Source: a virus. From it: a DNA stretch of 37,669 nucleotides. The DNA lies in IMG/VR virus record IMGVR_UViG_3300017769_000040, positions 1 to 37,669 of that record; one strand, 5' to 3'. This document shows positions 8,614-31,439 of the stretch, one piece after another. The position numbers and the translations under genes are program-made. The notes under the pieces were generated by a model. It was not told the DNA's origin. It did no database searches and saw only the letters and a program-made list of their open reading frames with translations. Numbering within the stretch: the first letter of the stretch is position 1; every line of letters starts with the position of its first letter.

Positions 8614-8635
8614 ACAAACTAATTTAATATTTATT

Positions 8636-8691
8636 CCGAAAAGGGTTGCTCTTTTTCTAAAAATAAGCGAGAATATAATTATATAAATTGA
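8636..8691 (+). promoter_or_regulatory. Early promoter motif, copy A
   Basis: The layout is CCGAAAAGGGTTG at 8636-8648, a CTTT-type -35 region, AAGCGAGAA, then a perfect TATAAT at 8674-8679 and ATAAATTGA at 8683-8691. The same arrangement, with equal spacing from the CC to the -10, recurs at 10855 and 21383. It drives the rightward early genes from 8704 and is divergent from the late promoter. Confidence 0.65.
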
Positions 8692-8703: not shown

Positions 8704-8844
8704 ATGAAAGCTAAATTGATAACCCTTGAAGTCCGTTTCTGGAACTTCTTAGATCGTTTTAACTTAATTATAGGCATGCTTGTGTTTGCAGGTGGCTGCC
8801 ATACTTTCAATTATCTTTTAACTTTAATTAACGAGGTATTTTAA
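8704..8844 (+). CDS. Small single-pass membrane protein (46 aa)
   Basis: The ORF starts at ATG 8704, eight bases after a GAAGG ribosome-binding site in the first early transcript. It ends in TAA overlapping the next ATG (TAATG). The sequence has a charged N-terminus with aromatic residues (EVRFWNFLDRF) and then a hydrophobic segment (NLIIGMLVFAGGC... FNYLLTLI), giving one transmembrane helix with no cleavage site. As the first early gene it could act on the host membrane, for instance in superinfection exclusion, but no family is recognised. Confidence 0.6.
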   Translation: MKAKLITLEVRFWNFLDRFNLIIGMLVFAGGCHTFNYLLTLINEVF

Positions 8845-10849: not shown

Positions 10850-10854
10850 ATATT

Positions 10855-10908
10855 CCGAAAAGGGTTGTGCTTTGTTAGAAAGTAAGGAAGAATAGAATCA
10901 TAAATTGA
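10855..10908 (+). promoter_or_regulatory. Early promoter motif, copy B
   Basis: CCGAAAAGGGTTG (10855-10867), TTTGTT, TAAGGAAGAA, a -10 of TAGAAT (10893-10898) and ATAAATTGA (10900-10908). TATTCCGAAAAGGGTTG is a 17-base exact match to copy A. It precedes the replication operon, which begins at 10929. Confidence 0.65.
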
Positions 10909-12144: not shown

Positions 12145-13839
12145 ATGAATGAAAGACCAGAAGATCATGGGATCAAGCTGAGAAAGTTTGATCATGGAAC
12201 TCAAAAAGTAAAATGTCCTAAATGTCAGCCACCGCATAAGATGTCTGATAACCCATTGAGCGTAACCATCAATGAAGAAGGCACAGTATGGTTTTGCCAT
12301 CATTGTGACTGGAAAGGTAGTTATTTTACTAACAGTAACAAGATGTATATTCCAAAAGAAAAGGTATATCAAAAACCAGATGTTCCCAATAGTAATGCCA
12401 AAAATACTACTTACGAATATTTCAAGAATCGTGGCATTGGGGCTACTGTTGTAGATGAATTCAAAATATTTGAGGACAAAGGTTGGTATGGGTTCCAGTA
12501 CTTTGATGAGCATGAGCAAGTCTTAAATATTAAATACAGAAACAATGGAAAAAACTTTAGGCAAACACAGGGGGCTAAACCTTTTTTGTATAACTACAAC
12601 AAAGTAAAAGAAGCTGACGAGATAGTATTTGTTGAAGGAGAAATGGATGTGTTGAGCTGTGCAGAGATAGGTATGTTGGCTACAACTTTGCCTAATGGTG
12701 CACCTAAAGAAGCTAAGTTTAATGATAAAGATGCTAGATTCAATGCTTTGGAAAACTGTCCTTTAAATGCTAAGAAAGTTGTCCTTTTCACTGATACAGA
12801 TACCGCAGGAAAAGCCTTACATAAAGAGTTGCTACATCGTTTTGGCAAAGATGTTTGTTGGTATGTAAATGTGCCTGATGATTGTAAAGATGCTAACGAT
12901 GTTTTGGTAAAACATGGAGCAGCAAAACTAAAGAAAATCATAGATGATGCAATACCTTATCCGATTGATGGTCTTTATTCTGCCAACGATTACTATTCAC
13001 AGATTCAAGATTTGTACGATGGTAATTATGAAAAGCCAATTGAAATAGGATTAAAAGGATTAGACGAAATCTACAAAATAATGACTGGTACTTTTCATTG
13101 TATTACTGGCATACCTAATCATGGAAAATCTATATTTTTAGATCAAATATTATTGAATCTAGCTATCAATCATGATTGGAAGTTTGCAATCTTTTCTCCT
13201 GAACATTCAACCTCAATGCACATAAGACGATTGATACAGATGTATTGTCGTAAGCCATTTGATGAAGGCTTTGAAGAAAGGCTTGATAAAAAAGAATTAA
13301 ATCAGGCTTTGGAGTTTATCCAGAATCACTTCTACTTCATAGAAACAAGGGACAGTACTCCAACTGTAAACAACATATTAGATATCACTAAATCGTCAAT
13401 ATTTAAGCATGGGATAAATGGTTTAGTGATTGACCCTTACAACGAAGTTGATGCTAAAAGAGAGGGCAATGCAAGAGAAGATGAGCATATTAGAGATTTC
13501 ATATCTTTATGTAAAAGGTTTTCAAGGATTTACGAGATCGTTACATGGGTTGTGGCACACCCTACCAAATTGCCTAAAGGCAATGATGGTGGTTATACCC
13601 CACCAACAGCTTATGACATAAGTGGAGCAGCACATTGGCACAATCAGGCTGATGCAGTTCTTACTATACACAGGGATTTTGATGAAAACACCACAAGTGT
13701 AATAACTAGGAAAATTAGAGAACAGGATTTATATGGAAAGATTGGTGAAGCTAAATTTATGTATAACTTCAAAACAAGGAACTTTGACCCTTATACAAAA
13801 ATGGTTGTTGGTGATTGGGAAGAAAATGTCACTTGGTAA
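12145..13839 (+). CDS. Bifunctional DNA primase-helicase (564 aa)
   Basis: Primes and unwinds DNA at the phage fork. A zinc-binding module (C24, C27, C51, C54: KCPKC and FCHHC) is followed by a TOPRIM primase core (VFVEGEMDVL near 162-170, acidic LFTDTDTAG near 214-222). From about residue 300 comes a RecA-like DnaB/T7 gp4 helicase domain with Walker A GIPNHGKS (322-329) and later motifs (GLVIDPYNEVD, WVVAHPTKLP, DISGAAHWHNQADAVLTIHR). AGGAG precedes ATG 12145. The 3' end overlaps the convergent kinase gene by 11 bases, with no terminator between them. Confidence 0.92.
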   Translation: MNERPEDHGIKLRKFDHGTQKVKCPKCQPPHKMSDNPLSVTINEEGTVWFCHHCDWKGSYFTNSNKMYIPKEKVYQKPDVPNSNAKNTTYEYFKNRGIGATVVDEFKIFEDKGWYGFQYFDEHEQVLNIKYRNNGKNFRQTQGAKPFLYNYNKVKEADEIVFVEGEMDVLSCAEIGMLATTLPNGAPKEAKFNDKDARFNALENCPLNAKKVVLFTDTDTAGKALHKELLHRFGKDVCWYVNVPDDCKDANDVLVKHGAAKLKKIIDDAIPYPIDGLYSANDYYSQIQDLYDGNYEKPIEIGLKGLDEIYKIMTGTFHCITGIPNHGKSIFLDQILLNLAINHDWKFAIFSPEHSTSMHIRRLIQMYCRKPFDEGFEERLDKKELNQALEFIQNHFYFIETRDSTPTVNNILDITKSSIFKHGINGLVIDPYNEVDAKREGNAREDEHIRDFISLCKRFSRIYEIVTWVVAHPTKLPKGNDGGYTPPTAYDISGAAHWHNQADAVLTIHRDFDENTTSVITRKIREQDLYGKIGEAKFMYNFKTRNFDPYTKMVVGDWEENVTW

Positions 13840-14359
13840 ATTCAAATATATCGTTAGCTAGACTCTTTGATTCTTCTAAATCTCTTAGGGAAACTAACTC
13901 AATTATATTAGAAAGTTCTTTGTCCTCTTTTATGTTTTGTATTTTTGTGAGTCTGCCTTTCTTGAATTTTTCTGTTTGTTTGTCGCCTCTTTGTTCGTGT
14001 CTTTTATCTAATGTTGCAGCATCTCCTTCAAGAATTAAAATGCGGATATCGTAATCCTGATTTAGAAGTTTTAAGTTATTTGCAGTAAAAAGACGATCAC
14101 CTTCAAAGACAATGTTCTTATCACCCATTGCAACATAGGCTTCAAAGTCTTTTTGAACTGCCATAGATAATTTGTCTGTGCCTGCAAAGACTTCTCCTAA
14201 ATCGTATATACCTAATACGCTAGTTTCGCTTTCTGTATCGTGATAACCCCTCAATAAACCCTTTTGAAATTTTTTATTAGGCTTCAACAAAGACAAATAA
14301 TTCCTCATAAGGGTAGTTTTGCCAGAAGCAGGAACACCGCCAATTGCTACACATTTCAT
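13829..14359 (-). CDS. P-loop kinase of the DNA hypermodification module (176 aa)
   Basis: Walker A GGVPASGKTT (residues 7-16) opens a small nucleoside/polynucleotide kinase-like fold. Further conserved-looking segments are GIYDLGEVFAGTDKLSMAVQ, a strand ending NIVFEGDRLF, and a lid with Lys/Arg (DKRHEQRGDKQTEKFKKGR). In phage systems that make hypermodified thymine a kinase phosphorylates 5-hydroxymethyluracil in DNA; this protein, coupled by ATGA to the transferase gene, is the natural candidate here. That substrate is inferred from context. It is the last gene of the module. Confidence 0.8.
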   Translation of the reverse strand: MKCVAIGGVPASGKTTLMRNYLSLLKPNKKFQKGLLRGYHDTESETSVLGIYDLGEVFAGTDKLSMAVQKDFEAYVAMGDKNIVFEGDRLFTANNLKLLNQDYDIRILILEGDAATLDKRHEQRGDKQTEKFKKGRLTKIQNIKEDKELSNIIELVSLRDLEESKSLANDIFEFTK

Positions 14360-15330
14360 AATGTTTTGTAGTTTAAAGTGCCAGTATCTAAAAATACAGA
14401 AAATAAATCTTTTCTTATTTTTTTGCTTTCAGCTAACTTTGGGTGCAGTGTCTCCTCTCTACCATCCCAAAAGACTTGCCAATCAATCCCATTCCATTCA
14501 TCTTGTTCTACTTTCTTTATCTCCTCTGCCTGTCTATCTAAATAATATCCCAAATATCTACCATCTCTGTTTCGGAAGATTTTTTTGAAACTACAAAGCA
14601 AAGTTTCCATCATGTAAAAGTCTAGAGTTTTGCCATATTCTGCGTCCATTCTTTTTTGTATGAGTTTTGCTTCAATTTCAAGGTGTCTTATGCAGCTTTG
14701 ATCAAGTTTTTGGTTTACCCAATCATCTAAACCTAATGCATAACAAAGACCATTCCTATGTGATTTACTTCCGCTGTAATCAGACAATTTCAGGTCATTT
14801 GGATTGCATAGAAAACCTGCACAGTCCTTTAGTGTCTGCATGTAATACCAAGTGCTATATCTCCCAAATTTGTGCATATTCAAAGATATGAGTTGCCAGA
14901 CATACTCAAAAGACTTGTTCTCTAAACTTTTGAATTTTGCTCTTTGTGTGCCCTCTTGATTGTTATGCTTAATCCACTTCTTGTAAGAGGCAAACTGTTG
15001 TGGCAGATGTCCTTTGTTCCACTTGGTGTCTGTCTGATATCTTAGTCTTTGATAGTTTTGATCGTTCCATCTTTGCAACCTACCTTGATCAACCAACTCA
15101 AAGTCAGGGAACTCATTCCAAATTACCCAAGCAGTAGGTAAATGGTATGTCGTACCATAAAGCCAACAAACCCAATACTTTTGTTCTAGATTATGCTCGT
15201 ATCTATCAAAAAGATAATTTAATAACCACAATGCAGGGTCACAGTCCTTTTGCTCTAGCGACCAATCAGACCACTGCAAAAAAGCCTCTGTCCTATTTTC
15301 CTTTAAGCGTAAGTCAGTGAACATTTTCAA
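14356..15330 (-). CDS. Amino acid:DNA transferase / aGPT-PPlase-family base hypermodification enzyme (324 aa)
   Basis: The family was predicted as alpha-glutamyl/putrescinyl thymine pyrophosphorylases and linked to attaching an amine to a phosphorylated or pyrophosphorylated hydroxymethyl-pyrimidine in phage DNA. Recognisable parts are DPALWLLNYLFDRYEHN, YWVCWLYGTTYHLPTAWVIW, FPDFELVD, then RLRYQTDTKWNKGHLPQQF and a helical core (GRYSTWYYMQTLKDC, SHRNGLCYALGLDDW). The hallmark of the helical 5-hmdU kinase domain (WTxDPIL) is absent. Genes for a dioxygenase and a kinase in the same operon agree with the role. The clade within the family is uncertain. Its start at 15330 overlaps the GNAT end by 17 bases; ATG 15324 is also possible. 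Confidence 0.72.
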   Translation of the reverse strand: MKMFTDLRLKENRTEAFLQWSDWSLEQKDCDPALWLLNYLFDRYEHNLEQKYWVCWLYGTTYHLPTAWVIWNEFPDFELVDQGRLQRWNDQNYQRLRYQTDTKWNKGHLPQQFASYKKWIKHNNQEGTQRAKFKSLENKSFEYVWQLISLNMHKFGRYSTWYYMQTLKDCAGFLCNPNDLKLSDYSGSKSHRNGLCYALGLDDWVNQKLDQSCIRHLEIEAKLIQKRMDAEYGKTLDFYMMETLLCSFKKIFRNRDGRYLGYYLDRQAEEIKKVEQDEWNGIDWQVFWDGREETLHPKLAESKKIRKDLFSVFLDTGTLNYKTL

Positions 15331-15940
15331 AAAGGTATCTTCTAAGCCAAAACTCTTGAACTTTATTTATGGCTTCAAATGTTGCCATTAGTTTCTTCTC
15401 AGAAAGCGAAAGAAGCTCAAGATCCTCCTTTTTTAATTTCTCGCAAACCTTTTGTTCAGGTCTTACCAATGAAGGGTTAGTTTTTGCTTTATTCCTTAAT
15501 TCAATCTGTTTCTTCACGCTGCTCATTAAGGGTTGATCTGATCTTAAACTGCCTTGTTTATCAACAGACCAAAATACCAAGCCATTTTTAGCATGAAAGC
15601 CTATTGAATCAGGAGTGCAAGATAGTTTGATTCTTTGCATGCCTCTTTCAGACCAATATAAAACGAAATCAGACCATATCTTTCTGCCATATCCTTTGCC
15701 CTCTTGTCCTTGTACAGTAACGATCTCGTAAAGGTTTATATACTTTGTCCTTTCAGATGTAGTGGCGAAAATAAACGCAACTGGGATTTCATCAATCAAA
15801 AGAGTGAAAGGTGGATTCTTTTCATAATTTTTAAATCTTTTCCACAGGCTATGACTCGCTTTTAAAAAAGAAGTATTTTTACCTTTAGGCAACTCACTTA
15901 GAGTTTTTAAAACATAATCTTCATTCGCAAAAATATTCAT
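15314..15940 (-). CDS. GNAT-family acyltransferase of the hypermodification module (208 aa)
   Basis: The acetyl-CoA binding motif is EIVTVQGQEGKGYGRKIW (Q-x-x-G-x-G type), preceded by a strand-rich half (FTLLIDEIPVAFIFAT) and followed by a second strand (QRIKLSCTPDSIGFHAKNGLVFW), as in GNAT folds. A charged helical tail follows. The frame extends to 16015, but ATG 15940 overlaps the amidotransferase stop as ATGA and is preferred. In DNA-modification operons GNAT enzymes are thought to acylate the amine added to the base; here the substrate is inferred from context only. Confidence 0.75.
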   Translation of the reverse strand: MNIFANEDYVLKTLSELPKGKNTSFLKASHSLWKRFKNYEKNPPFTLLIDEIPVAFIFATTSERTKYINLYEIVTVQGQEGKGYGRKIWSDFVLYWSERGMQRIKLSCTPDSIGFHAKNGLVFWSVDKQGSLRSDQPLMSSVKKQIELRNKAKTNPSLVRPEQKVCEKLKKEDLELLSLSEKKLMATFEAINKVQEFWLRRYLFENVH

Positions 15941-16587
15941 GCTTGTAAATCTTCTAAAGAATCTCTTATTTTTGTAACCTTTAAAACAGTCTTTTCTGCA
16001 CAGTAATCTAAACAAGGTTCTGTCTTTTCATAGTCTGCTATACCACATCTTTCTAAAATATTTTTAGTTGAGCCGACTATCAATGTTTCTTCTAGTTTTG
16101 AGAAATATAAAGGTCGCTGCTCGTTCCTAAAAAAATTCAATGTGGGGCTTTTTTTGTTTGTTAATACCACGCAACTCATAGAGCCTTCTATGTTCAATGG
16201 ATGTATGCCTTTGAGCCAATGTAAAAGAAGTATCTCGCTATCGCACTTGGAACTAAACTTCATGTTGTACTTAGCTTCCCACTCACTTGGATCACTTTGA
16301 TCCACAACTCCATTATGTGCTAATGAAGTAGTCCCTTTATAAACAGGTTGATTGTAAAGTAAGTCTGATGTGCTGTACCTGCAATGAGCTATCAAGTTTT
16401 TGGTTCTAAAATCAGGTAGATCAAAAAGGTCAGCAGAATAAGGCACGATTTCATGTTTCAATTTTCCGTCCTCAATCCAACTTAGACCAGTAGCATGTTT
16501 ACCCCTTATCATGGATTTGAGGAGTATTTCTTTTACTAAAGATTTATCAATAAAGTTTTTAGATTGTAAGCCAACAACAGCACACAT
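15937..16587 (-). CDS. Class-II glutamine amidotransferase (Ntn-type), stand-alone (216 aa)
   Basis: Hydrolyses glutamine to supply ammonia, or transfers an amide. All class-II motifs are visible: catalytic Cys2 (MCAVVG), RGKHATGLSW, IAHCRYST, LAHNGVVD and CDSEILLLHW. The frame could start at GTG 16590, but ATG 16587 puts Cys at position 2, exposed after Met removal, as this enzyme class requires. No synthetase domain is fused, so the acceptor must be another protein. Coupling is TGATG with the dioxygenase gene and ATGA with the GNAT gene. The natural reading is a nitrogen donor or amide-processing step in base hypermodification. Confidence 0.85.
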   Translation of the reverse strand: MCAVVGLQSKNFIDKSLVKEILLKSMIRGKHATGLSWIEDGKLKHEIVPYSADLFDLPDFRTKNLIAHCRYSTSDLLYNQPVYKGTTSLAHNGVVDQSDPSEWEAKYNMKFSSKCDSEILLLHWLKGIHPLNIEGSMSCVVLTNKKSPTLNFFRNEQRPLYFSKLEETLIVGSTKNILERCGIADYEKTEPCLDYCAEKTVLKVTKIRDSLEDLQA

Positions 16588-17504
16588 CACAGACTCAAAC
16601 TGTCGCCTCTGTTTCTTGTTTGTGCTTTGAAAAGTTCCTCTTCAGCAGACTGACAGTGATGCATTTTTTCTCTGTAATAGCAGACAATTGACACTCTTTC
16701 ATATGCTAGTTTGGCTTTTATTTCTGTATTGGCGTGATATTCATGTACATTGAAAAAGCACACATCACCGCTTCTCACATCAAAAGCAACTCGGTATCTA
16801 GGTATAACAGTATATCCACCTTCGTATTTCCCTGCCTCTAATACAGCTAAGTTTCCTAAACCCTCTTTGTAATCTCCTGCATCTACATGCAAGGCGGTCC
16901 TAAAGTTTTTGTTTACTGTGATGGTCGTAAACACAGTATCTTTAATCAAGAAGTCTGCATTTGTTTGATCTGCCATGATTTTTTGTGCTTCATATTTTTC
17001 AGGACATGATTCTTTAAAAAGCTCGTTAATTTTATGTATGTAGGGATAGGCTTTTTTGAACTTATTAAAGTTTTTTTCATACCATGCAGTCTGTCTGCAA
17101 AAAGGGAATCTAGCATTCCTATCAAAAAAACCAACAATGCCTGAGTTCACTGTATTAGCTCTTGAAGTATTACTGAGTGTTCCGTCCTTTTTAATGCCTC
17201 TAAATCTTATTTTACTTAAATCCCCTATTTCCCAGTCGCTTTGGGTTTCATTACTGATAATACCGCCTGCACTACCACGATTGTTTGTGGGTGCTGCTGC
17301 ATCTCTTAAAGCTACATAAGCATCTTTACAAAGGTTAGTAGGTATTTTGTTTTTCCTAAAGAAGAATAAAGGCTCTCCATTTTCGCCATATGCATCACAA
17401 TCATCTCTGATTACAACATCATAATCAGATTCATCAATCCATTCTCCTTTCCTTTTGGCTACTTCTTCTTTTGTATAGTGTGGTTCTAAATTAAAAACCT
17501 TCAT
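16587..17504 (-). CDS. TET/JBP-family 2-oxoglutarate/Fe(II) dioxygenase (305 aa)
   Basis: Oxidises the methyl group of thymine or 5-methylcytosine in DNA. The catalytic core shows iron ligands H206 and D208 (RTALHVDAGD), a middle strand (AVLEAGKYEGGYTVIPRY, then VAFDVRSGDVCFF), the distal His H257 in YHANT and the 2-oxoglutarate Arg R270 in ERVSIVCYY. The last two match LHATT and TRISLVFY of human TET2, with similar His-to-Arg spacing. RGSAGG and FFDRNARFPFCRQTAW upstream also fit the family. TTG 17522 is an alternative start; ATG 17504 is the first ATG. No cytosine methyltransferase is seen, so thymine is the likelier substrate (inference). Confidence 0.87.
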   Translation of the reverse strand: MKVFNLEPHYTKEEVAKRKGEWIDESDYDVVIRDDCDAYGENGEPLFFFRKNKIPTNLCKDAYVALRDAAAPTNNRGSAGGIISNETQSDWEIGDLSKIRFRGIKKDGTLSNTSRANTVNSGIVGFFDRNARFPFCRQTAWYEKNFNKFKKAYPYIHKINELFKESCPEKYEAQKIMADQTNADFLIKDTVFTTITVNKNFRTALHVDAGDYKEGLGNLAVLEAGKYEGGYTVIPRYRVAFDVRSGDVCFFNVHEYHANTEIKAKLAYERVSIVCYYREKMHHCQSAEEELFKAQTRNRGDSLSL

Positions 17505-18117
17505 TTTTCGCTGTCTTTTCAACTGCTTCGTAAACAGTCTCAGTTAAATTTTCTTTAGACCATTTTTCTCTAAGGAAAGCTACCATGTCTTGAAACTTTG
17601 GCTCTGTTTCTTGATTCAAAAATATATTTACCATTCTCACATTACTGGTCTGTAAGTCATCAAATTGTGAGGTGTCAATATCGGTTACAATCTCCTCTGG
17701 CTCTGTGAACTCAATCATATCAGATGTCATTTTCTCAATTTCTTCAAACGAAAACCCTGTCTGATCAAGGTCATAATTGTGATCAGCAAGTTTGCCAAAC
17801 TCCTCAGCAAGAAGGTCATTATCCCACTCTGAGAAATCTTGGCTTTTGTTATCCATAATCCTGAAAGCAGTTTTTTGAGCCTCACTAAGTCCTTCTGCTT
17901 TGTGCACAGGTACTTGTTCAAACCCTAACAACTTGGCAGCCTTCAGTCTCGTATGTCCTGCTAGGATTACCATATCTTCATCAACGATTATAGGAACTCG
18001 CCAACCAACCTCTTTTATGCTCATAGCTACTTTTTCAATAGACTCTTTATTGTTTCTAGGGTTGTTGGGGTATTCTTGCAAATCCTCAACCTTCATCATT
18101 TTTGTGTTGTATGCCAT
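17491..18117 (-). CDS. ParB N-terminal-domain protein of the hypermodification module (208 aa)
   Basis: Residues 8-95 are a ParB/Srx-like domain: DLQEYPNNPRNNKESIEKVAMSI, then VPIIVDEDMVILAGHTRLKAAKLLG, where GHTRLKAA is the nucleotide-binding motif. The rest is acidic and helical (DNKSQDFSEWDNDLLAEEFG... FLREKWSKENLTETVYEAVEKT) and lacks ParB's HTH and dimerisation domains. Such stand-alone ParB domains recur beside phage DNA-modification genes, where they are suspected to guide or regulate the modifying enzymes; their reaction is not settled. Its end overlaps the dioxygenase start by 14 bases. Confidence 0.85.
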   Translation of the reverse strand: MAYNTKMMKVEDLQEYPNNPRNNKESIEKVAMSIKEVGWRVPIIVDEDMVILAGHTRLKAAKLLGFEQVPVHKAEGLSEAQKTAFRIMDNKSQDFSEWDNDLLAEEFGKLADHNYDLDQTGFSFEEIEKMTSDMIEFTEPEEIVTDIDTSQFDDLQTSNVRMVNIFLNQETEPKFQDMVAFLREKWSKENLTETVYEAVEKTAKNEGF

Positions 18118-18118
18118 A

Positions 18119-18325
18119 TTAATCTAAATAAAAATCGTTAGGTGTTACTAAGCCATCAGTGGCTTGGTATATTATATTTAATTCCTTTTTTCTTGGATAT
18201 CTTTGTTCTAAAAGATATTTAGCTAAAGTTCCTTGCGGAAACTTGTGACCAGTTTTTGACTCAGCACTTCTGATAAACAGGTTTTGTGTAAGTTTATTTG
18301 CTCTCAAATATTCTTTTAATTTCAT
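18119..18325 (-). CDS. Cro/CI-like helix-turn-helix regulator (68 aa)
   Basis: A compact HTH protein with the plan of Cro-type repressors: LKEYLRANKLTQNLFIRSAE for the first helices, a variable recognition region (FPQGTLAKYLLEQRYP), then a C-terminal IIYQATDGLVTPNDFYL, a signature of the Cro/CI family. It is the first gene of the leftward modification operon. Upstream are two overlapping divergent promoters with a palindrome, so autoregulation plus control of the rightward recombination operon is likely. No integrase was found, so a true lysogeny switch is unproven. Confidence 0.75.
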   Translation of the reverse strand: MKLKEYLRANKLTQNLFIRSAESKTGHKFPQGTLAKYLLEQRYPRKKELNIIYQATDGLVTPNDFYLD

Positions 18326-18357
18326 TTCTTATCTACAAAAAAAGGGTTAGAATTACT

Positions 18358-18405
18358 TTGTATTATTCCTTTTTGGGATTATACTAGACACACACTAAGT
18401 GTCAA
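18358..18405. promoter_or_regulatory. Overlapping face-to-face promoters (genetic switch)
   Basis: Minus strand: TTGACA (18405-18400), a 16-base spacer, TATAAT (18383-18378), a perfect sigma-70 consensus in both boxes, for the HTH-modification operon. Plus strand: TTGTAT (18358-18363), a 16-base spacer, TATACT (18380-18385), for the exonuclease operon. The two -10 boxes share four bases, so polymerase should occupy only one promoter at a time. Confidence 0.75.
18387..18403. promoter_or_regulatory. Operator candidate inside the switch
   Basis: ACACT-A-AGTGT (18392-18402) is a 5-bp palindrome around one base; the wider GACAC...GTGTC (18387-18391 and 18399-18403) also pairs. It touches the leftward -35 box and the start region of the rightward promoter, so a bound HTH dimer would affect both. 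A short one-base-centred palindrome suits a small Cro-like dimer. Confidence 0.5.
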
Positions 18406-18428
18406 TTGAACTAAAATGAGGTATTAAA

Positions 18429-19217
18429 ATGATAAATAATTCTTTTGAAGCACATGGTATAGACCACCTTTCAGCTTCATCTATAAACACTTATATTGAC
18501 GACCCCAGTATGTGGGTTATGCGATATCTTTTTGGCTACAAGTCTGCAGGCAATCCTGCTATGTGGAGAGGAACTGCAATAGATTATGCAATAGGCTCAT
18601 ACTTTGGATTTACTTCTGCAAATACAGACAGTATCAGCGATGCACTTGAGCTTTCCAAGAAACACTTCAAACAACTTTATGAAGATCAAAAGAGATTCCT
18701 TCCTGAACATAAGGTGGATTTAGATAAATATGTAAAAGAGCTAAAGAGCCTTAACAAATTTACTAACTCTGCTGTAAGTTTCTATCACAGCTTAGGCAAA
18801 CCTACTGACTATCAAAAAGAAGTAAATTTACAATTAGAAGATTTACCTGTCCCTATTCGTGGATATATTGATCTTCAATACAAGGACACTATTAGAGATA
18901 TCAAAACGACTGCAAGATATCCTAATGATGTGTCTTCCAATCATGCAAGACAGATGTCTATTTATGCAAAGGCGGAAGATTGTTTATCAATATTGGACTA
19001 TGTTTATGTGACCACGACTAAGCAAGAAGTGGTTTCAAAGCCTGTCACTAATGTTGATGAGCATATAAAGGTGGTTGAGAGAGTAGCATTATCAATAATG
19101 AAGCTCCTTGCCTATTCAAATGATAAATATGAAATAGCATCTTTATTTCATCCAAACTTTGACGACTGGAAGTGGAGCGAAGATGAAATAAAGTTTGCTA
19201 AAACTATATGGAGTTAA
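18429..19217 (+). CDS. PD-(D/E)XK exonuclease, RecB/Cas4-like (262 aa)
   Basis: Recombination exonuclease that would resect double-stranded ends for the annealing protein encoded next. N-terminal HLSASSINTYIDDPSMWVMRYL and MWRGTAIDYAIGSYF are typical of the RecB-type PDDEXK group. The catalytic core is GYIDLQYKDTIRDIKTTARYP, with the Asp and the D-x-K pair, followed by the conserved QMSIYAKAE helix. No four-Cys iron-sulfur cluster is present, unlike Cas4. It is the first gene of the rightward operon; GAGG lies upstream of the ATG. The pairing exonuclease plus single-strand annealing protein is a standard phage recombination unit. Confidence 0.82.
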   Translation: MINNSFEAHGIDHLSASSINTYIDDPSMWVMRYLFGYKSAGNPAMWRGTAIDYAIGSYFGFTSANTDSISDALELSKKHFKQLYEDQKRFLPEHKVDLDKYVKELKSLNKFTNSAVSFYHSLGKPTDYQKEVNLQLEDLPVPIRGYIDLQYKDTIRDIKTTARYPNDVSSNHARQMSIYAKAEDCLSILDYVYVTTTKQEVVSKPVTNVDEHIKVVERVALSIMKLLAYSNDKYEIASLFHPNFDDWKWSEDEIKFAKTIWS

Positions 19218-20862: not shown

Positions 20863-21105
20863 ATGGCTAATTACAAATATAAAAAAGAAGATTTTAAATC
20901 AAGCACTTATAGTTTGAAGGACTATGAATTGCATTTGATCTGTGAAGCATTAGATTTTGCTGATAAAAATAATATATTCACTGGCGAAGATGAATACATC
21001 GCTGACGATTTAAAATGTGATCTCGCAAGTTCAAAAGCTAGATCAGAGCAATTACTTAATTTTTTGAAAAATGATTTTCTAAAAAATGAAAGGAAGAAAT
21101 CCTAA
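20863..21105 (+). CDS. Small unknown protein (80 aa)
   Basis: A charged, helical protein (SLKDYELHLICEALDFADKNN, IADDLKCDLASSKARSEQLL) with a Lys-rich end. Not recognised. It lies 11 bases after the coiled-coil gene and overlaps the Ref-like gene by 20 bases, so it is part of the recombination operon. Confidence 0.5.
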   Translation: MANYKYKKEDFKSSTYSLKDYELHLICEALDFADKNNIFTGEDEYIADDLKCDLASSKARSEQLLNFLKNDFLKNERKKS

Positions 21106-21388
21106 CAAAGCAGAAAAAGAGCATATGGGCAAAGTGCAGCAATTGGGTTGTATCGTATGTCGTAATCTTGGCTTTTTAGGAACACCTGCAGAAATCCACC
21201 ATGTTTTTGGTAAAACTAAAAAACACACACATATGATGGTCTTGCCCTTATGTCCTTCGCATCATCGTTATGGTGGTTATGAGGAGCCTATAAGCAGACA
21301 CCCATACAAAGCTAGGTTTGAAGCTGCTTATGGCACAGAAGAAAACCTTCTAAAACAGGTTGAAAATTTATTAAAAAATTGTCCATAA
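21086..21388 (+). CDS. Ref-like HNH recombination nuclease (100 aa)
   Basis: The motif set C-x-x-C (GCIVCRN), EIHHVFG, HTHMMVLPLCPSHHR, then an Arg/His-containing loop, matches the HNH domain of the P1 Ref family, which cuts DNA at RecA-bound sites and boosts recombination. The position next to exonuclease and annealing genes agrees. The protein is smaller than P1 Ref because the disordered basic N-terminus is nearly absent. The start is ATG 21086; ATG 21125 (MGKVQQ) is possible. Confidence 0.75.
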   Translation: MKGRNPNKAEKEHMGKVQQLGCIVCRNLGFLGTPAEIHHVFGKTKKHTHMMVLPLCPSHHRYGGYEEPISRHPYKARFEAAYGTEENLLKQVENLLKNCP

Positions 21389-21442
21389 TTCTGTTGTCTT
21401 TAGTTATCTCTAAGGAAGAATATAATTAATCTAATAAATTGA
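21383..21442 (+). promoter_or_regulatory. Early promoter motif, copy C
   Basis: TTGTCTTTAG, TAAGGAAGAA, a perfect TATAAT (21421-21426), then ATAAATTGA (21434-21442) running into GGAG of the next ribosome-binding site. It lacks the CCGAAAAGGG block of copies A and B but keeps the same distances. It starts a separate transcript for the antirestriction genes. Confidence 0.65.
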
Positions 21443-21452
21443 AGGAGATAAA

Positions 21453-21695
21453 ATGAAAAATCTAAAACTAATACTAGAAAACCCTAATACTCAAACTGAG
21501 ATAGTTCTTGGTTTCGTTGCTGATGAGGACGAAGCTAACGAGGTTGTTGATTGCATTGAGGAAAAGTGGTTTTCTTTAATTGATTCTAACCTTGATAAGC
21601 CAGTTGACACGCTAACTGATGACCCTGTTTTACTAAACTGGGAAGGAAGCGACATCTACTATATCAATCCACATAACGAACACTTTTACCTTTAA
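21453..21695 (+). CDS. Small acidic unknown protein (80 aa)
   Basis: First gene after promoter copy C, with an AAGGAG site. Acidic, with a beta-alpha pattern (KLILENPNTQTEIVLGFVADE, EANEVVDCIEEKWF, GSDIYYINPHNEHFYL). It lacks Cys motifs and membrane helices. An acidic small protein just ahead of an ArdC gene could be a DNA mimic, but nothing beyond charge and position supports that. Confidence 0.55.
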   Translation: MKNLKLILENPNTQTEIVLGFVADEDEANEVVDCIEEKWFSLIDSNLDKPVDTLTDDPVLLNWEGSDIYYINPHNEHFYL

Positions 21696-21705
21696 GGAGC
21701 ATAAA

Positions 21706-22581
21706 ATGAAGAAAGACGAAGTATTTAAAAGGATAAGAGAGAAAATCTTAGAGCTGATGAAGAAAGAGGGTACAGACTGGACTAAGTCTTGGATTGCTAC
21801 TGCAACTCCTCTTAACTTCTTAAGCAAAAAAGACTACAGAGGCATCAATAACTTTTGGCTTTCTGTACAAGGCTTTGACTCAAATGAGTGGGGTACTTTC
21901 AAACAATGGCAGTCTAAAGGCTACCGCATCAAGAAAGGTTCTTCCGCTACTCCGATAATCTTTTCTGAGATGAGAGAAAAAACTCTAGACAGATTGTCCG
22001 ATGATGAAAAAGCTAGATACGAAGAAACAGGTGTAATGCCTAAGTTTTGGTTACTAAGAAGCTACAATGTTTTTAACGCTGACCAGATAGAGGCTTATGT
22101 AAGTGAAAATACTAAGGTTGATCATAAAGAAACTATCAGTTCTAAAGACTTAGAGGCAGTAATAAGGTTTATTGCTGCCACTAAAGCAGAGATCAAACAC
22201 GAAGGCGATAGAGCTTACTATCATCAAATATTAGATGAAATAACTATGCCTGTTAAAGAGAAATTCTTTTCTGATGAAGATTACTACTCTGTCTTATTGC
22301 ATGAGCTAACTCACTGGACTATGCACGAAGATAGAACCAACAGACAAGATAAAGACCTAAGTTATGCACAAGAAGAATTAGTAGCAGAGCTTGGTTCGGC
22401 TTTTCTTTGCAGATTGTTGAATGTTTCAAAAACAGTTAGACCAGATCACGCTAAGTATCTAAATAACTGGATTGAAGCGATTGAGGATAGCGAGAAAGCA
22501 ATGGTTCAAGCGTTTTCGGATGCACAAAAGGCGGTTGATTACTTAACCAAACTACAAACTAAAATGGAGAAGGCTGCATAA
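21706..22581 (+). CDS. ardC: ArdC-type antirestriction protein with zincin peptidase domain (291 aa)
   Basis: Protects incoming DNA from restriction. The N-terminal half is the ArdC single-strand DNA-binding domain (DWTKSWIA, DYRGINNFWLS, WGTFKQWQSKGYRIKKGSSATPI, FWLLRSYNVFNADQIE). The C-terminal half is a zincin metallopeptidase with H199-E200-x-x-H203 (LLHELTHWT) and the downstream Glu region (YAQEELVAELGSAF). Length is normal for ArdC. GGAG precedes the ATG. An intrinsic terminator overlaps the stop codon. With the base-modification operon it would give two anti-restriction layers. Confidence 0.88.
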   Translation: MKKDEVFKRIREKILELMKKEGTDWTKSWIATATPLNFLSKKDYRGINNFWLSVQGFDSNEWGTFKQWQSKGYRIKKGSSATPIIFSEMREKTLDRLSDDEKARYEETGVMPKFWLLRSYNVFNADQIEAYVSENTKVDHKETISSKDLEAVIRFIAATKAEIKHEGDRAYYHQILDEITMPVKEKFFSDEDYYSVLLHELTHWTMHEDRTNRQDKDLSYAQEELVAELGSAFLCRLLNVSKTVRPDHAKYLNNWIEAIEDSEKAMVQAFSDAQKAVDYLTKLQTKMEKAA

Positions 22582-28578: not shown

Positions 28579-31439
28579 GTAGATAAACCTACTATTTCTA
28601 TATAAAACGGACCTAGACCTTTTTGTCCGCTTGCATTGTTGCTTAGACTCCTAGCTGCTCCAAACAACCTTAAATATCTTGTGCTATTAGAAGGAATGTC
28701 CTCTAACAAAGCTAAAACCCTTGTTCCTAAAGCTGCTGTCCCTGTGGCTGTGAAAGACCTAAAAGCAACTATGCTGTCTAAATCAGTTGAGCTGTCCCCT
28801 AATGCAAGAACACCTCGGATCTCTGATGAACTAGAAGATGAACCTACTGGATTGTAACCACACCAGATAGCGTATTTTTTGGTTGCCGCTCCTGAATGAA
28901 TGGGAAAATTTATTGTTATGTTAGCCACTGTGTCCATAGTGTGCGTAGTTGAGCCATCATTGTATTGACGAGGGTTTGAGTCATTATCAAAATTAGTTAA
29001 ATCAAAATTAAACTCAGTGATAGAGTTATCTTGAGATATAGTACCGCCTGTAGCCCCCCCTGTTCCACTTTTTCCTCTTGAACCTAAAGATATGGTTGCT
29101 AAAGCAATCTCGCTTTCCGTTATTGTTAAAGAATCTATTTTTGCTGCTTGTATTGCATCATCTTCAATATCTGTCGTATCTACTCTTGTGAAATTTGCGT
29201 TTCCTGCAGACACAAAACCAGATGAATGCGTACCACCATGATTGATTGCTCTTACCCAAAAATAATATGTTGTACCAAAAGATAAACCATCTTGAATACC
29301 AAAATCTGCTTTACTGATAGCACTTGGTTCTCCAAAAACTGTTTGCACTAAATTAGTATCATCCGTTGGTGTTGTACTGTTTGTTTTTCTATATATTTTG
29401 ACTGCTCTCAAATCGCTGTTAGATGGATTAGTCCATTGCACTCTTATACCAAAAGCATTGCCTGTAGTAACAGAGGCACTGGTAGGACTGTTTGGAGCAT
29501 CAGTTGGTTGCGTAATAGTAATGTTACTAAAGTCTGTTGCACTTGAATAAACATTGTCAAAAGTAAAATGTCTTACCCTGACATTATAAGTTTGACCTAC
29601 AGTTACATTGGGTATGACTGCTATCGTTTGACCCTTGCCTGATATTTGAGATGTGTAGGTAGAATCTGAACTTAGTTTGTATTGAACTTCTGTTCCTTGT
29701 ATGGCTTCGTTTGAGGCATTTGACCAAACAACTTTTATATTTACTTTAGTAGTTGTGCCATCAATAGTTGCTGTTTGATTTATAGAACTTGCTGTTGGAG
29801 CTGTCACAGACAAAGTACCTGATGTTAAATCACTTCCCTCTGCCTGTATGGTTGAATATTCATTGGTAGCGAAATCATAAACACTTGTGCTTATTTCCTT
29901 GAGGTCAAGTTGGCAGGCAAGAATAGGGTTATCTTCACCTTCAACAACCATTGTAACTGCAAGGACTTCAAATAGTTTGTTACTGAAAGATAATCTTTCA
30001 TTAGTGACTTGCACATAATCTGATGGTTGTAATTGTAAAAATTTGAGATTGGTTGTTACTCTTATTGTCGTGGTTTCTCTTTGGTGTAGTAGTCCTATTT
30101 TTCCTAACCTTTGAGCCATTGTATCGCTTGTGGTGAATGGTAGTTGTAACTCCATTGTTTTTACGAAATTTGCGGTTGACTCACCACTTGGAGTATCTGC
30201 ATTCAAAAATGTAGAATTCTGTAAAACAGGTGTATCTGTACCAATAAATTTTTGTGTTGAATCAGCAAAAAGTACTTTAACAGTATTGTAGAGTTGTCCT
30301 TGTGCATTTTTGGTTGTAACAGAAACAGGAGAAATACAATCATCATCAGTTATAGTAAGACTTGCTGTTTGATTTGCTCCTGCAAAGACATTGAACTTAC
30401 CATTTGAGTAAGTCATTTTACCTGCCATAGAAGAAGTTATACCATTGATTATATCCTCTCTAGTTCCTGCAAAGTTTGTGAATCCATTGCAGGTATATCT
30501 TTGCTCAGTTGAACTGCCATCCGCAAGAGTTACAGTCTGTTCACAAGTATTGGCAGCTGCTGCAAAACCACCTGCATTTGTAGTGTCATTTATTTCTGTT
30601 GATGTTGCTCCAACACCATAGGTTGTATCTGTCAAAAGATCTCTAAGAATTAAAGCAGGATTATTACCTATGACCTTATTTGTACTATCTGTAAAAGCTG
30701 TTTCAGAAGTTCTTGGGTCAAAAAGTTTTTTACCTCTCACTTGAAAACTGATATTTGGAAAGTTAGGCAGTTTTTCTGAATCATATGCCATTTGCATATA
30801 AACATAAGAGCAACCTAAAAATTTATGATTGTTTGGAACAGATGTTGAATTTATCTGTGCTTGTGCAAAACCATCAACAGCAGTTTGACTGCCATCATGG
30901 AAAGTAAACCTTATCAATGCTCCTGAACCAAAGTTTTCAGTGTTATCAGTGTTTGTAAATTCTGTAGAAGTAACAGTGTGGACAGTTTCCCCATTTATCG
31001 TTGATGTTGATGTATTAGTTCCTAGAACTATTGTTTTATCGTTTATGAAAACTTTAATTAAACTATCTACTTGATGTCCAGATAAAACGCAAAATAAATG
31101 CAGAATAGAGTTTGATTGGGTCACGCCAGTAGTCTCTATTTGAGTGTAAACACCACCGACTCTACACTCACCATAAATGAGTTGTCTTGGAGCATTGGCA
31201 TCTTTGACACTTACTTTAGTTCCTAAATTATTTCCAAGTCCAGATGGCAAGTCCTCTGCCAACATTTCGTTCAAACCTGCAGTTACAAAGGTCGTGGTAA
31301 ATGCAGCCAACACGGCACCACCAACACCACCAACACCGAAGAAAGCAAATCCTGCAGGAAGCATTGCAGTACCACCTGTACCAACAACAATACCTGCTAT
31401 GACTGCAGCAATAACAGCTGCTTTAACTGCTCTAGCCAT
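28575..31439 (-). CDS. Tail tip / host-specificity protein, J-like with fibronectin III domains (954 aa)
   Basis: Central tail-tip protein that contacts the receptor. The N-terminus has an unusual hydrophobic Gly/Ala stretch (residues 8-60). Next comes the J-like core: NAPRQLIYGECRVGGVYTQI, FPNISFQVRGKKLFDPR, NNPALILRDLLTDTTYGVG, RYTCNGFTNFAGTREDIING, then LRVT-like and LQPSDYVQVTNERL. From about residue 535 two fibronectin type III modules follow (TTKVNIKVVWSN, GQTYNVRVRHF; IRVQWTNPSNSDLRAVKIYR, GTTYYFWVRAIN), then a C-terminal beta-rich receptor-facing part. Position after the DUF6950/NlpC-like gene matches lambda K-I-J and GTA gp14-gp15 order. Confidence 0.88.
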   Translation of the reverse strand: MARAVKAAVIAAVIAGIVVGTGGTAMLPAGFAFFGVGGVGGAVLAAFTTTFVTAGLNEMLAEDLPSGLGNNLGTKVSVKDANAPRQLIYGECRVGGVYTQIETTGVTQSNSILHLFCVLSGHQVDSLIKVFINDKTIVLGTNTSTSTINGETVHTVTSTEFTNTDNTENFGSGALIRFTFHDGSQTAVDGFAQAQINSTSVPNNHKFLGCSYVYMQMAYDSEKLPNFPNISFQVRGKKLFDPRTSETAFTDSTNKVIGNNPALILRDLLTDTTYGVGATSTEINDTTNAGGFAAAANTCEQTVTLADGSSTEQRYTCNGFTNFAGTREDIINGITSSMAGKMTYSNGKFNVFAGANQTASLTITDDDCISPVSVTTKNAQGQLYNTVKVLFADSTQKFIGTDTPVLQNSTFLNADTPSGESTANFVKTMELQLPFTTSDTMAQRLGKIGLLHQRETTTIRVTTNLKFLQLQPSDYVQVTNERLSFSNKLFEVLAVTMVVEGEDNPILACQLDLKEISTSVYDFATNEYSTIQAEGSDLTSGTLSVTAPTASSINQTATIDGTTTKVNIKVVWSNASNEAIQGTEVQYKLSSDSTYTSQISGKGQTIAVIPNVTVGQTYNVRVRHFTFDNVYSSATDFSNITITQPTDAPNSPTSASVTTGNAFGIRVQWTNPSNSDLRAVKIYRKTNSTTPTDDTNLVQTVFGEPSAISKADFGIQDGLSFGTTYYFWVRAINHGGTHSSGFVSAGNANFTRVDTTDIEDDAIQAAKIDSLTITESEIALATISLGSRGKSGTGGATGGTISQDNSITEFNFDLTNFDNDSNPRQYNDGSTTHTMDTVANITINFPIHSGAATKKYAIWCGYNPVGSSSSSSEIRGVLALGDSSTDLDSIVAFRSFTATGTAALGTRVLALLEDIPSNSTRYLRLFGAARSLSNNASGQKGLGPFYIEIVGLST

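Follow-up and report, generated by a model that had tools for sequence, protein, structure and literature searches.

Introduction

Promoters that work in both directions from shared -10 boxes are widespread (PMC12825309). Those of E. coli have a symmetric shared -10 element and give divergent transcripts; improving one -35 box can suppress the opposite direction, competition between polymerases was found only where activity in one direction was strong (Warman et al. 2026; PMC12825309), and at acrR/acrA the autorepressor AcrR represses transcription both ways from the promoter of its own gene (PMC12825309). The promoter described here, predicted from sequence, has the same layout, but it belongs to a phage, its candidate operator is fused to the -10 palindrome and recurs at other promoters, and one of its -35 boxes is a perfect consensus.

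The lambdoid Cro proteins (434 Cro, lambda Cro) are small, single-domain helix-turn-helix (HTH) proteins with palindromic operators over divergent promoters, and they turn down early genes, including those for replication. The protein studied here would act in a similar way, yet its operator is single rather than triple and lies inside a shared -10, extra sites are present at separate early promoters, and no cI partner was seen. An integrase (PF00589) was absent from the 11 records searched, so that nothing points to a lysogeny switch, although these records may be incomplete.

Other described regulators share part of this arrangement. The repressor of mycobacteriophages L5 and L1 is likewise one phage protein with many asymmetric sites throughout the genome (PMC1934351), but these phages are temperate and their operator and protein differ. 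The controller (C) proteins of restriction-modification systems are also small HTH proteins encoded first in an operon with DNA-modifying enzymes, the expression of which they time; here there is no restriction enzyme and an activation arm is only hypothetical. A literature search for the present phage group returned nothing specific to it. In this group of uncultivated phages, which encode elaborate pathways of DNA modification, the locus offers a concrete regulatory map (candidate operator sequence, sites and target genes). It is also a clear example of a bidirectional promoter that has been conserved and in which the -10 common to both directions appears to belong to an operator.

Gene content of the locus

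The window, by which we mean the whole 37.7-kb IMG/VR virus record that was analysed, derives from a tailed phage: the genes for the tape measure, a J-like fibre, the portal and the terminase are oriented leftward, and the early genes are split among separate operons. No DNA-level relatives of it were found among named phages, and a search for tRNAs in the window found none. An intergenic gap of 103 bp (18326-18428) separates the gene of a 68-residue Cro/CI-type HTH protein (18119-18325, minus strand), the probable regulator, from that of a RecB/Cas4-like PD-(D/E)XK nuclease (18429-19217, plus strand; Pfam PDDEXK_1, 1.3e-7). The HTH gene is the first of a leftward operon, followed by a ParB-like gene (17491-18117, minus strand; Pfam ParB_N, phrog_620), which is found downstream of it in most relatives, and by DNA-modification genes (13829-17522, minus strand) encoding a TET/JBP dioxygenase, a glutamine amidotransferase, a GNAT-like protein, an amino acid:DNA transferase (ADDT) and a P-loop kinase. 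The rightward operon comprises the PD-(D/E)XK nuclease, unknown genes, a Ref-like RecA-dependent nuclease (21086-21388, plus strand; Pfam RecA_dep_nuc, 1.9e-16) and, in the same early block, an ArdC-like anti-restriction protein (21706-22581; ArdcN and zincin-like metallopeptidase). In many relatives the ArdC gene has its own promoter with the ATTCC motif described below.

Modification genes behind the HTH gene also occur in relatives, with varied chemistry: TET/ADDT, a TET-associated glycosyltransferase (TAGT; operons of the G023/G029 type) or a C5 methyltransferase (G030). A preliminary description of the locus had read the leftward operon as one of DNA modification, expressed late and opposed to recombination. 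Because the leftward operons of relatives carry modification genes too, the modification theme was right and the opposition to recombination is unsupported; late expression was not borne out by the present analysis.

In the window, the TET/JBP dioxygenase and ADDT genes (16587-17522 and 14356-15330) lie alongside the kinase, amidotransferase and GNAT genes. In relatives, two HTH-linked operons (L118, 8789-10664; L116, 9374-11244) encode a cytidylyltransferase, a ParB-like protein and TAGT, and tblastn with the window protein detected no TET in them. The C5-cytosine methyltransferase family PF00145 was absent from the window and from seven other TET-bearing relatives searched; only G030, which is without TET, carries it. 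The substrate of the TET enzyme may be thymine, as for JBP, or 5-methylcytosine made by the host.

The HTH protein

The AlphaFold model of the 68-residue protein (pLDDT 91) has five helices in a lambda-repressor-like HTH arrangement, as in Cro/CI-type proteins. Its closest solved fold is the N-terminal domain of TP901-1 CI, a phage repressor (Z 9.4 over 65 residues, at 14% identity, which is too low for a claim of kinship), with P22 c2 (7.5) and 434 Cro (6.6) also among the best matches. The full TP901-1 CI carries an additional C-terminal domain and works in a lysogeny switch. Pfam HTH_26 or HTH_3 matched 6 of 14 alignment members, the window protein (P0001) itself being unmatched; NCBIfam gave no match, and a sequence search of the PDB with the HTH profile gave insignificant matches only. 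A single weak match (38%) was found among named phages. Bacterial relatives are distant and mostly alphaproteobacterial; they are too weak a basis for naming a host. The analysis supports the preliminary description in taking the first leftward gene for a Cro/CI-like HTH protein and likely regulator.

Divergent promoters sharing a -10 region

The leftward promoter, predicted to drive the HTH and modification operon (18378-18405, minus strand), consists of TTGACA (18405-18400), a 16-nt spacer and TATAAT (18383-18378), a 12/12 match to consensus. Such a match is expected about 0.07 times in the window, where this is the only one, and none arose in 60 second-order Markov simulations. The rightward promoter, predicted to drive the nuclease operon (18357-18385, plus strand), has its TATACT at 18380-18385. 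The two -10 boxes therefore overlap by 4 bp (18380-18383; common sequence TATA/ATTATA), so that divergent -10 elements share a symmetric sequence, as in known bidirectional promoters.

We compared this arrangement with that of 61 anchored HTH promoters. A rightward TATANT over the leftward TATAAT was kept in 55 of them, the overlapping hexamer being TATAAT in 26, TATACT in 25, TATAGT and TATATT in 2 each, and another sequence in 6. By this comparison the overlap of the -10 boxes exceeds chance. A leftward score of 12/12 was reached by the window alone, most others scoring 9-10; the relatives' leftward -10 is near-invariant and their -35 variable. The perfect leftward -35 was present also in a 97% relative (L002), and in these alignments it is lineage-specific. 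Because boxes and hexamers are conserved in relatives, both promoters are likely real, the seemingly weaker rightward one being the better conserved.

All box sequences and coordinates given in the preliminary description, including the overlap and the perfect leftward consensus, were found in place. Its rightward promoter stands as regards the conserved TATACT, while its -35 (TTGTAT, 18358-18363, 16-nt spacer) is better read as TTTGTA (18357-18362, 17-nt spacer), the first two T of which are invariant in all 13 promoters with sequence there.

A conserved candidate operator in the rightward spacer

The palindrome ACACTAAGTGT (18392-18402), which had been proposed as the operator, is probably incidental. 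The window contains 47 palindromes of this kind (5-bp arms, 1-nt loop), and in the aligned HTH upstream regions of relatives it is absent save in the 97% relative. With its frequency at chance level and no conservation, it was rejected as the operator.

Another element is conserved instead. The 15-bp ATTCCTTTTTGGGAT (18365-18379, plus strand), an imperfect ATTCC-N5-GGAAT palindrome, lies in the spacer of the rightward promoter, is directly followed by TATACT, and spans the edge of the leftward -10 and the leftward start site. When 19 viral loci with HTH relatives were fetched and their HTH upstream regions aligned, TATAATTCC-N5-GGAAT was shared beyond the 97% relative and the flanks diverged. 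In a column-by-column comparison of 15 diverged promoters, the conserved positions were those of both half-sites, the leftward TATAAT box and the final T of the rightward -10; the rightward -35 showed two invariant T in the 17-nt register. The site and the rightward TATANT are found again next to HTH homologues of dozens of phages from metagenomes. In a wider homologue search (80 loci kept), the operator preceded the gene in 41 of 46 homologues with a PQGT recognition helix, 36 of these with the -10 attached, and in none of 31 distant homologues; these genomes share ancestry, and such counts overstate independence. A site at the protein's own promoter, kept across homologues, is what one finds for Cro-like early repressors, and the 68-residue protein probably binds this short palindrome built into the two-way promoter.

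The sequence of the own-promoter site varies with the recognition helix in the homologues compared. Those with an SQGG helix mostly have GGATT where others have GGAAT or TGAAT: in a hand tally, a GGATT right half was present in 13 of 16 SQ-type and 1 of 48 PQ-type promoters (Fisher 6e-10, ignoring ancestry). The homologues thereby provide naturally varied pairs of recognition helix and operator.

Near-copies at other early promoters

Near-copies of the site, ATTCCRAAAARGGTT, lie just upstream of the -35 box at other early promoters. The window has two, both ATTCCGAAAAGGGTT: one (8633-8647, plus strand) overlaps the -35 of a rightward early promoter preceding the ORF at 8704, and the other (10852-10866, plus strand) is at the promoter of the replication operon (10929; RepO-like, 11515; primase/helicase, 12145). 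Both sit inside a 68-nt repeat that precedes rightward early operons. In relatives the motif is strand-directed, with 0 or 1 control match per genome. Its 69 sites (51 non-redundant) have -10-like boxes peaking 20-22 nt downstream, which places them at about -48 to -34 with their last TT as the start of the -35; they are intergenic save one weak coding-region match, and nearly all lie 32-85 nt before an ATG, the usual distance being 50-85 nt. The genes behind them encode the RepO-like replication initiator, ArdC, an ORF like that at 21453 of the window, PDDEXK nucleases and small early proteins; in G017 the nuclease gene itself is preceded by such a site. These targets suggest that the HTH protein turns down modification, recombination and replication genes jointly.

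Could the ATTCC motif be bound by another factor, a host regulator or a second phage protein, the HTH gene being merely one of its targets? Binding of the HTH protein to the motif is deduced indirectly, and the other-promoter sites are asymmetric, with GGGTT instead of GGAAT, and keep ATTCC even in phages with an SQ helix. In the latter, the own-promoter site reads AA/ATCC..GGATT and the other sites ATTCC..GGGGT. It is accordingly not certain that one protein binds both site types. The assignment of sites to the two motif classes rests on a shared core, CC-N5-GG with AT-rich flanks. Against another factor, changes in the HTH recognition helix go with changes in the own-promoter site, proteins of this fold usually regulate their own genes, and motif and HTH gene co-occur. 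A scan of the viral collection with the motif only returned 33 stretches; 11 of the 27 records searched carry the HTH gene, including 8 of the 11 that are at least 15 kb long, the three others (G016, G034 and G036) being fragments without the HTH region. The own-promoter site of the window also matched a matrix built from the motif sites (p=0.001); this cross-test was significant for the window and several relatives, and not for relatives with a TGAAT half-site. Another factor thus seems highly improbable. The idea of a helix-dependent change at every site did not hold, as early promoters of the SQ clade retain a left-hand ATTCC.

Joint repression as the favoured reading

We consider it probable that the HTH protein represses, in the manner of Cro, its own modification operon together with the divergent nuclease operon and most early operons, its binding and sign being what we infer from these sites. 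The gap would be a bidirectional sigma70-type promoter with a built-in operator. Just after infection the host polymerase would use the promoters of all these operons, the strong leftward -35 of the window phage favouring the leftward direction at the shared -10. As the HTH protein accumulates, a dimer on ATTCCTTTTTGGGAT would shut off both directions, and the protein would also occupy the near-copies at the promoters of the replication initiator/primase, ArdC and small early genes, so that all of these would be turned down together in the fashion of lambda Cro. The preliminary remark that so strong a leftward promoter would need repression is supported.

The same description had proposed that modification and recombination exclude each other because their promoters overlap, the HTH protein tipping the balance at ACACTAAGTGT. 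The -10 overlap is indeed real and conserved, and at bidirectional promoters strong activity one way can suppress the other (PMC12825309). Yet overlap as such excludes simultaneous polymerases without separating the two operons in time, and competition needs a strongly active direction (PMC12825309). The perfect leftward -35 is not general, ACACTAAGTGT is unconserved, and two relatives (G017 and G029) have separated promoters. The consensus -35 could bias the unrepressed state leftward, yet the conserved operator covers both promoters and its occupation would lower both operons together. With near-copies also at promoters for replication, anti-restriction and other early functions, the predicted regulon extends beyond two operons, which points to a general early regulator. 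We therefore find such a toggle very hard to credit.

A closer competitor is a dual regulator that represses at the shared -10 and activates the other early operons from about -41 (class II), giving an immediate-early to delayed-early programme like that of GIL01 gp6 or of controller proteins. The palindrome from which GIL01 gp6 activates has its centre at -43.5 (PMC6182141). Small HTH proteins of the same fold, e.g. C.AhdI, act as both activators and repressors. The spacing of the upstream sites from the -10 is rigid; they overlap the -35 and are centred near -41, the classic position of a class II activator, which counts against common repression. At PQ-clade early promoters the centre is near -41.5, over the -35; several SQ-clade sites, and the site of the HTH promoter, are nearer to -20 or to the start. 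In four SQ-clade phages (G037-G040) the early-promoter sites, including that of the G037 nuclease promoter, lie between a TTGCAC-like -35 and TATACT, as does the operator in the rightward promoter of the window. In G017 and G029, by contrast, the rightward operon has its site at about -41, and the overlapping -10 has decayed to TATAAG (last T lost), so that the nuclease operon has either register, depending on the phage. Because the site keeps its targets and changes its register, steric occlusion is favoured; a single type of site found in two registers is easier to reconcile with repression than with activation. Furthermore, in the motif promoters the -35 (TTTACT/TTGCTC) is selected and the -10 good and often extended, so that they may work unaided, and ArdC would be expected to be immediate-early.

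As a main reading, class II activation was ranked below repression after the sister-clade sites between -35 and -10 were found. With the two registers and the quality of the -35 and -10 boxes, common early repression is favoured and the dual regulator appears unlikely. It is similarly doubtful that one 68-residue protein runs a phage-wide early regulon, repressing at the operator fused to the shared -10 and activating from the offset copy at -41, so that its concentration alone times modification, recombination, anti-restriction and replication.

The promoter before ORF 21453 of the window (21390-21452) has the -35/-10 layout seen at 8633 and 10852, without the ATTCC operator; the homologous promoters of G002 and G004 do carry it. 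At the HTH promoter of G004 and G005, two operator copies lie 27 bp apart, each beside a -10-like box (L051, 9680-9721, corresponding to G004 29680-29721).
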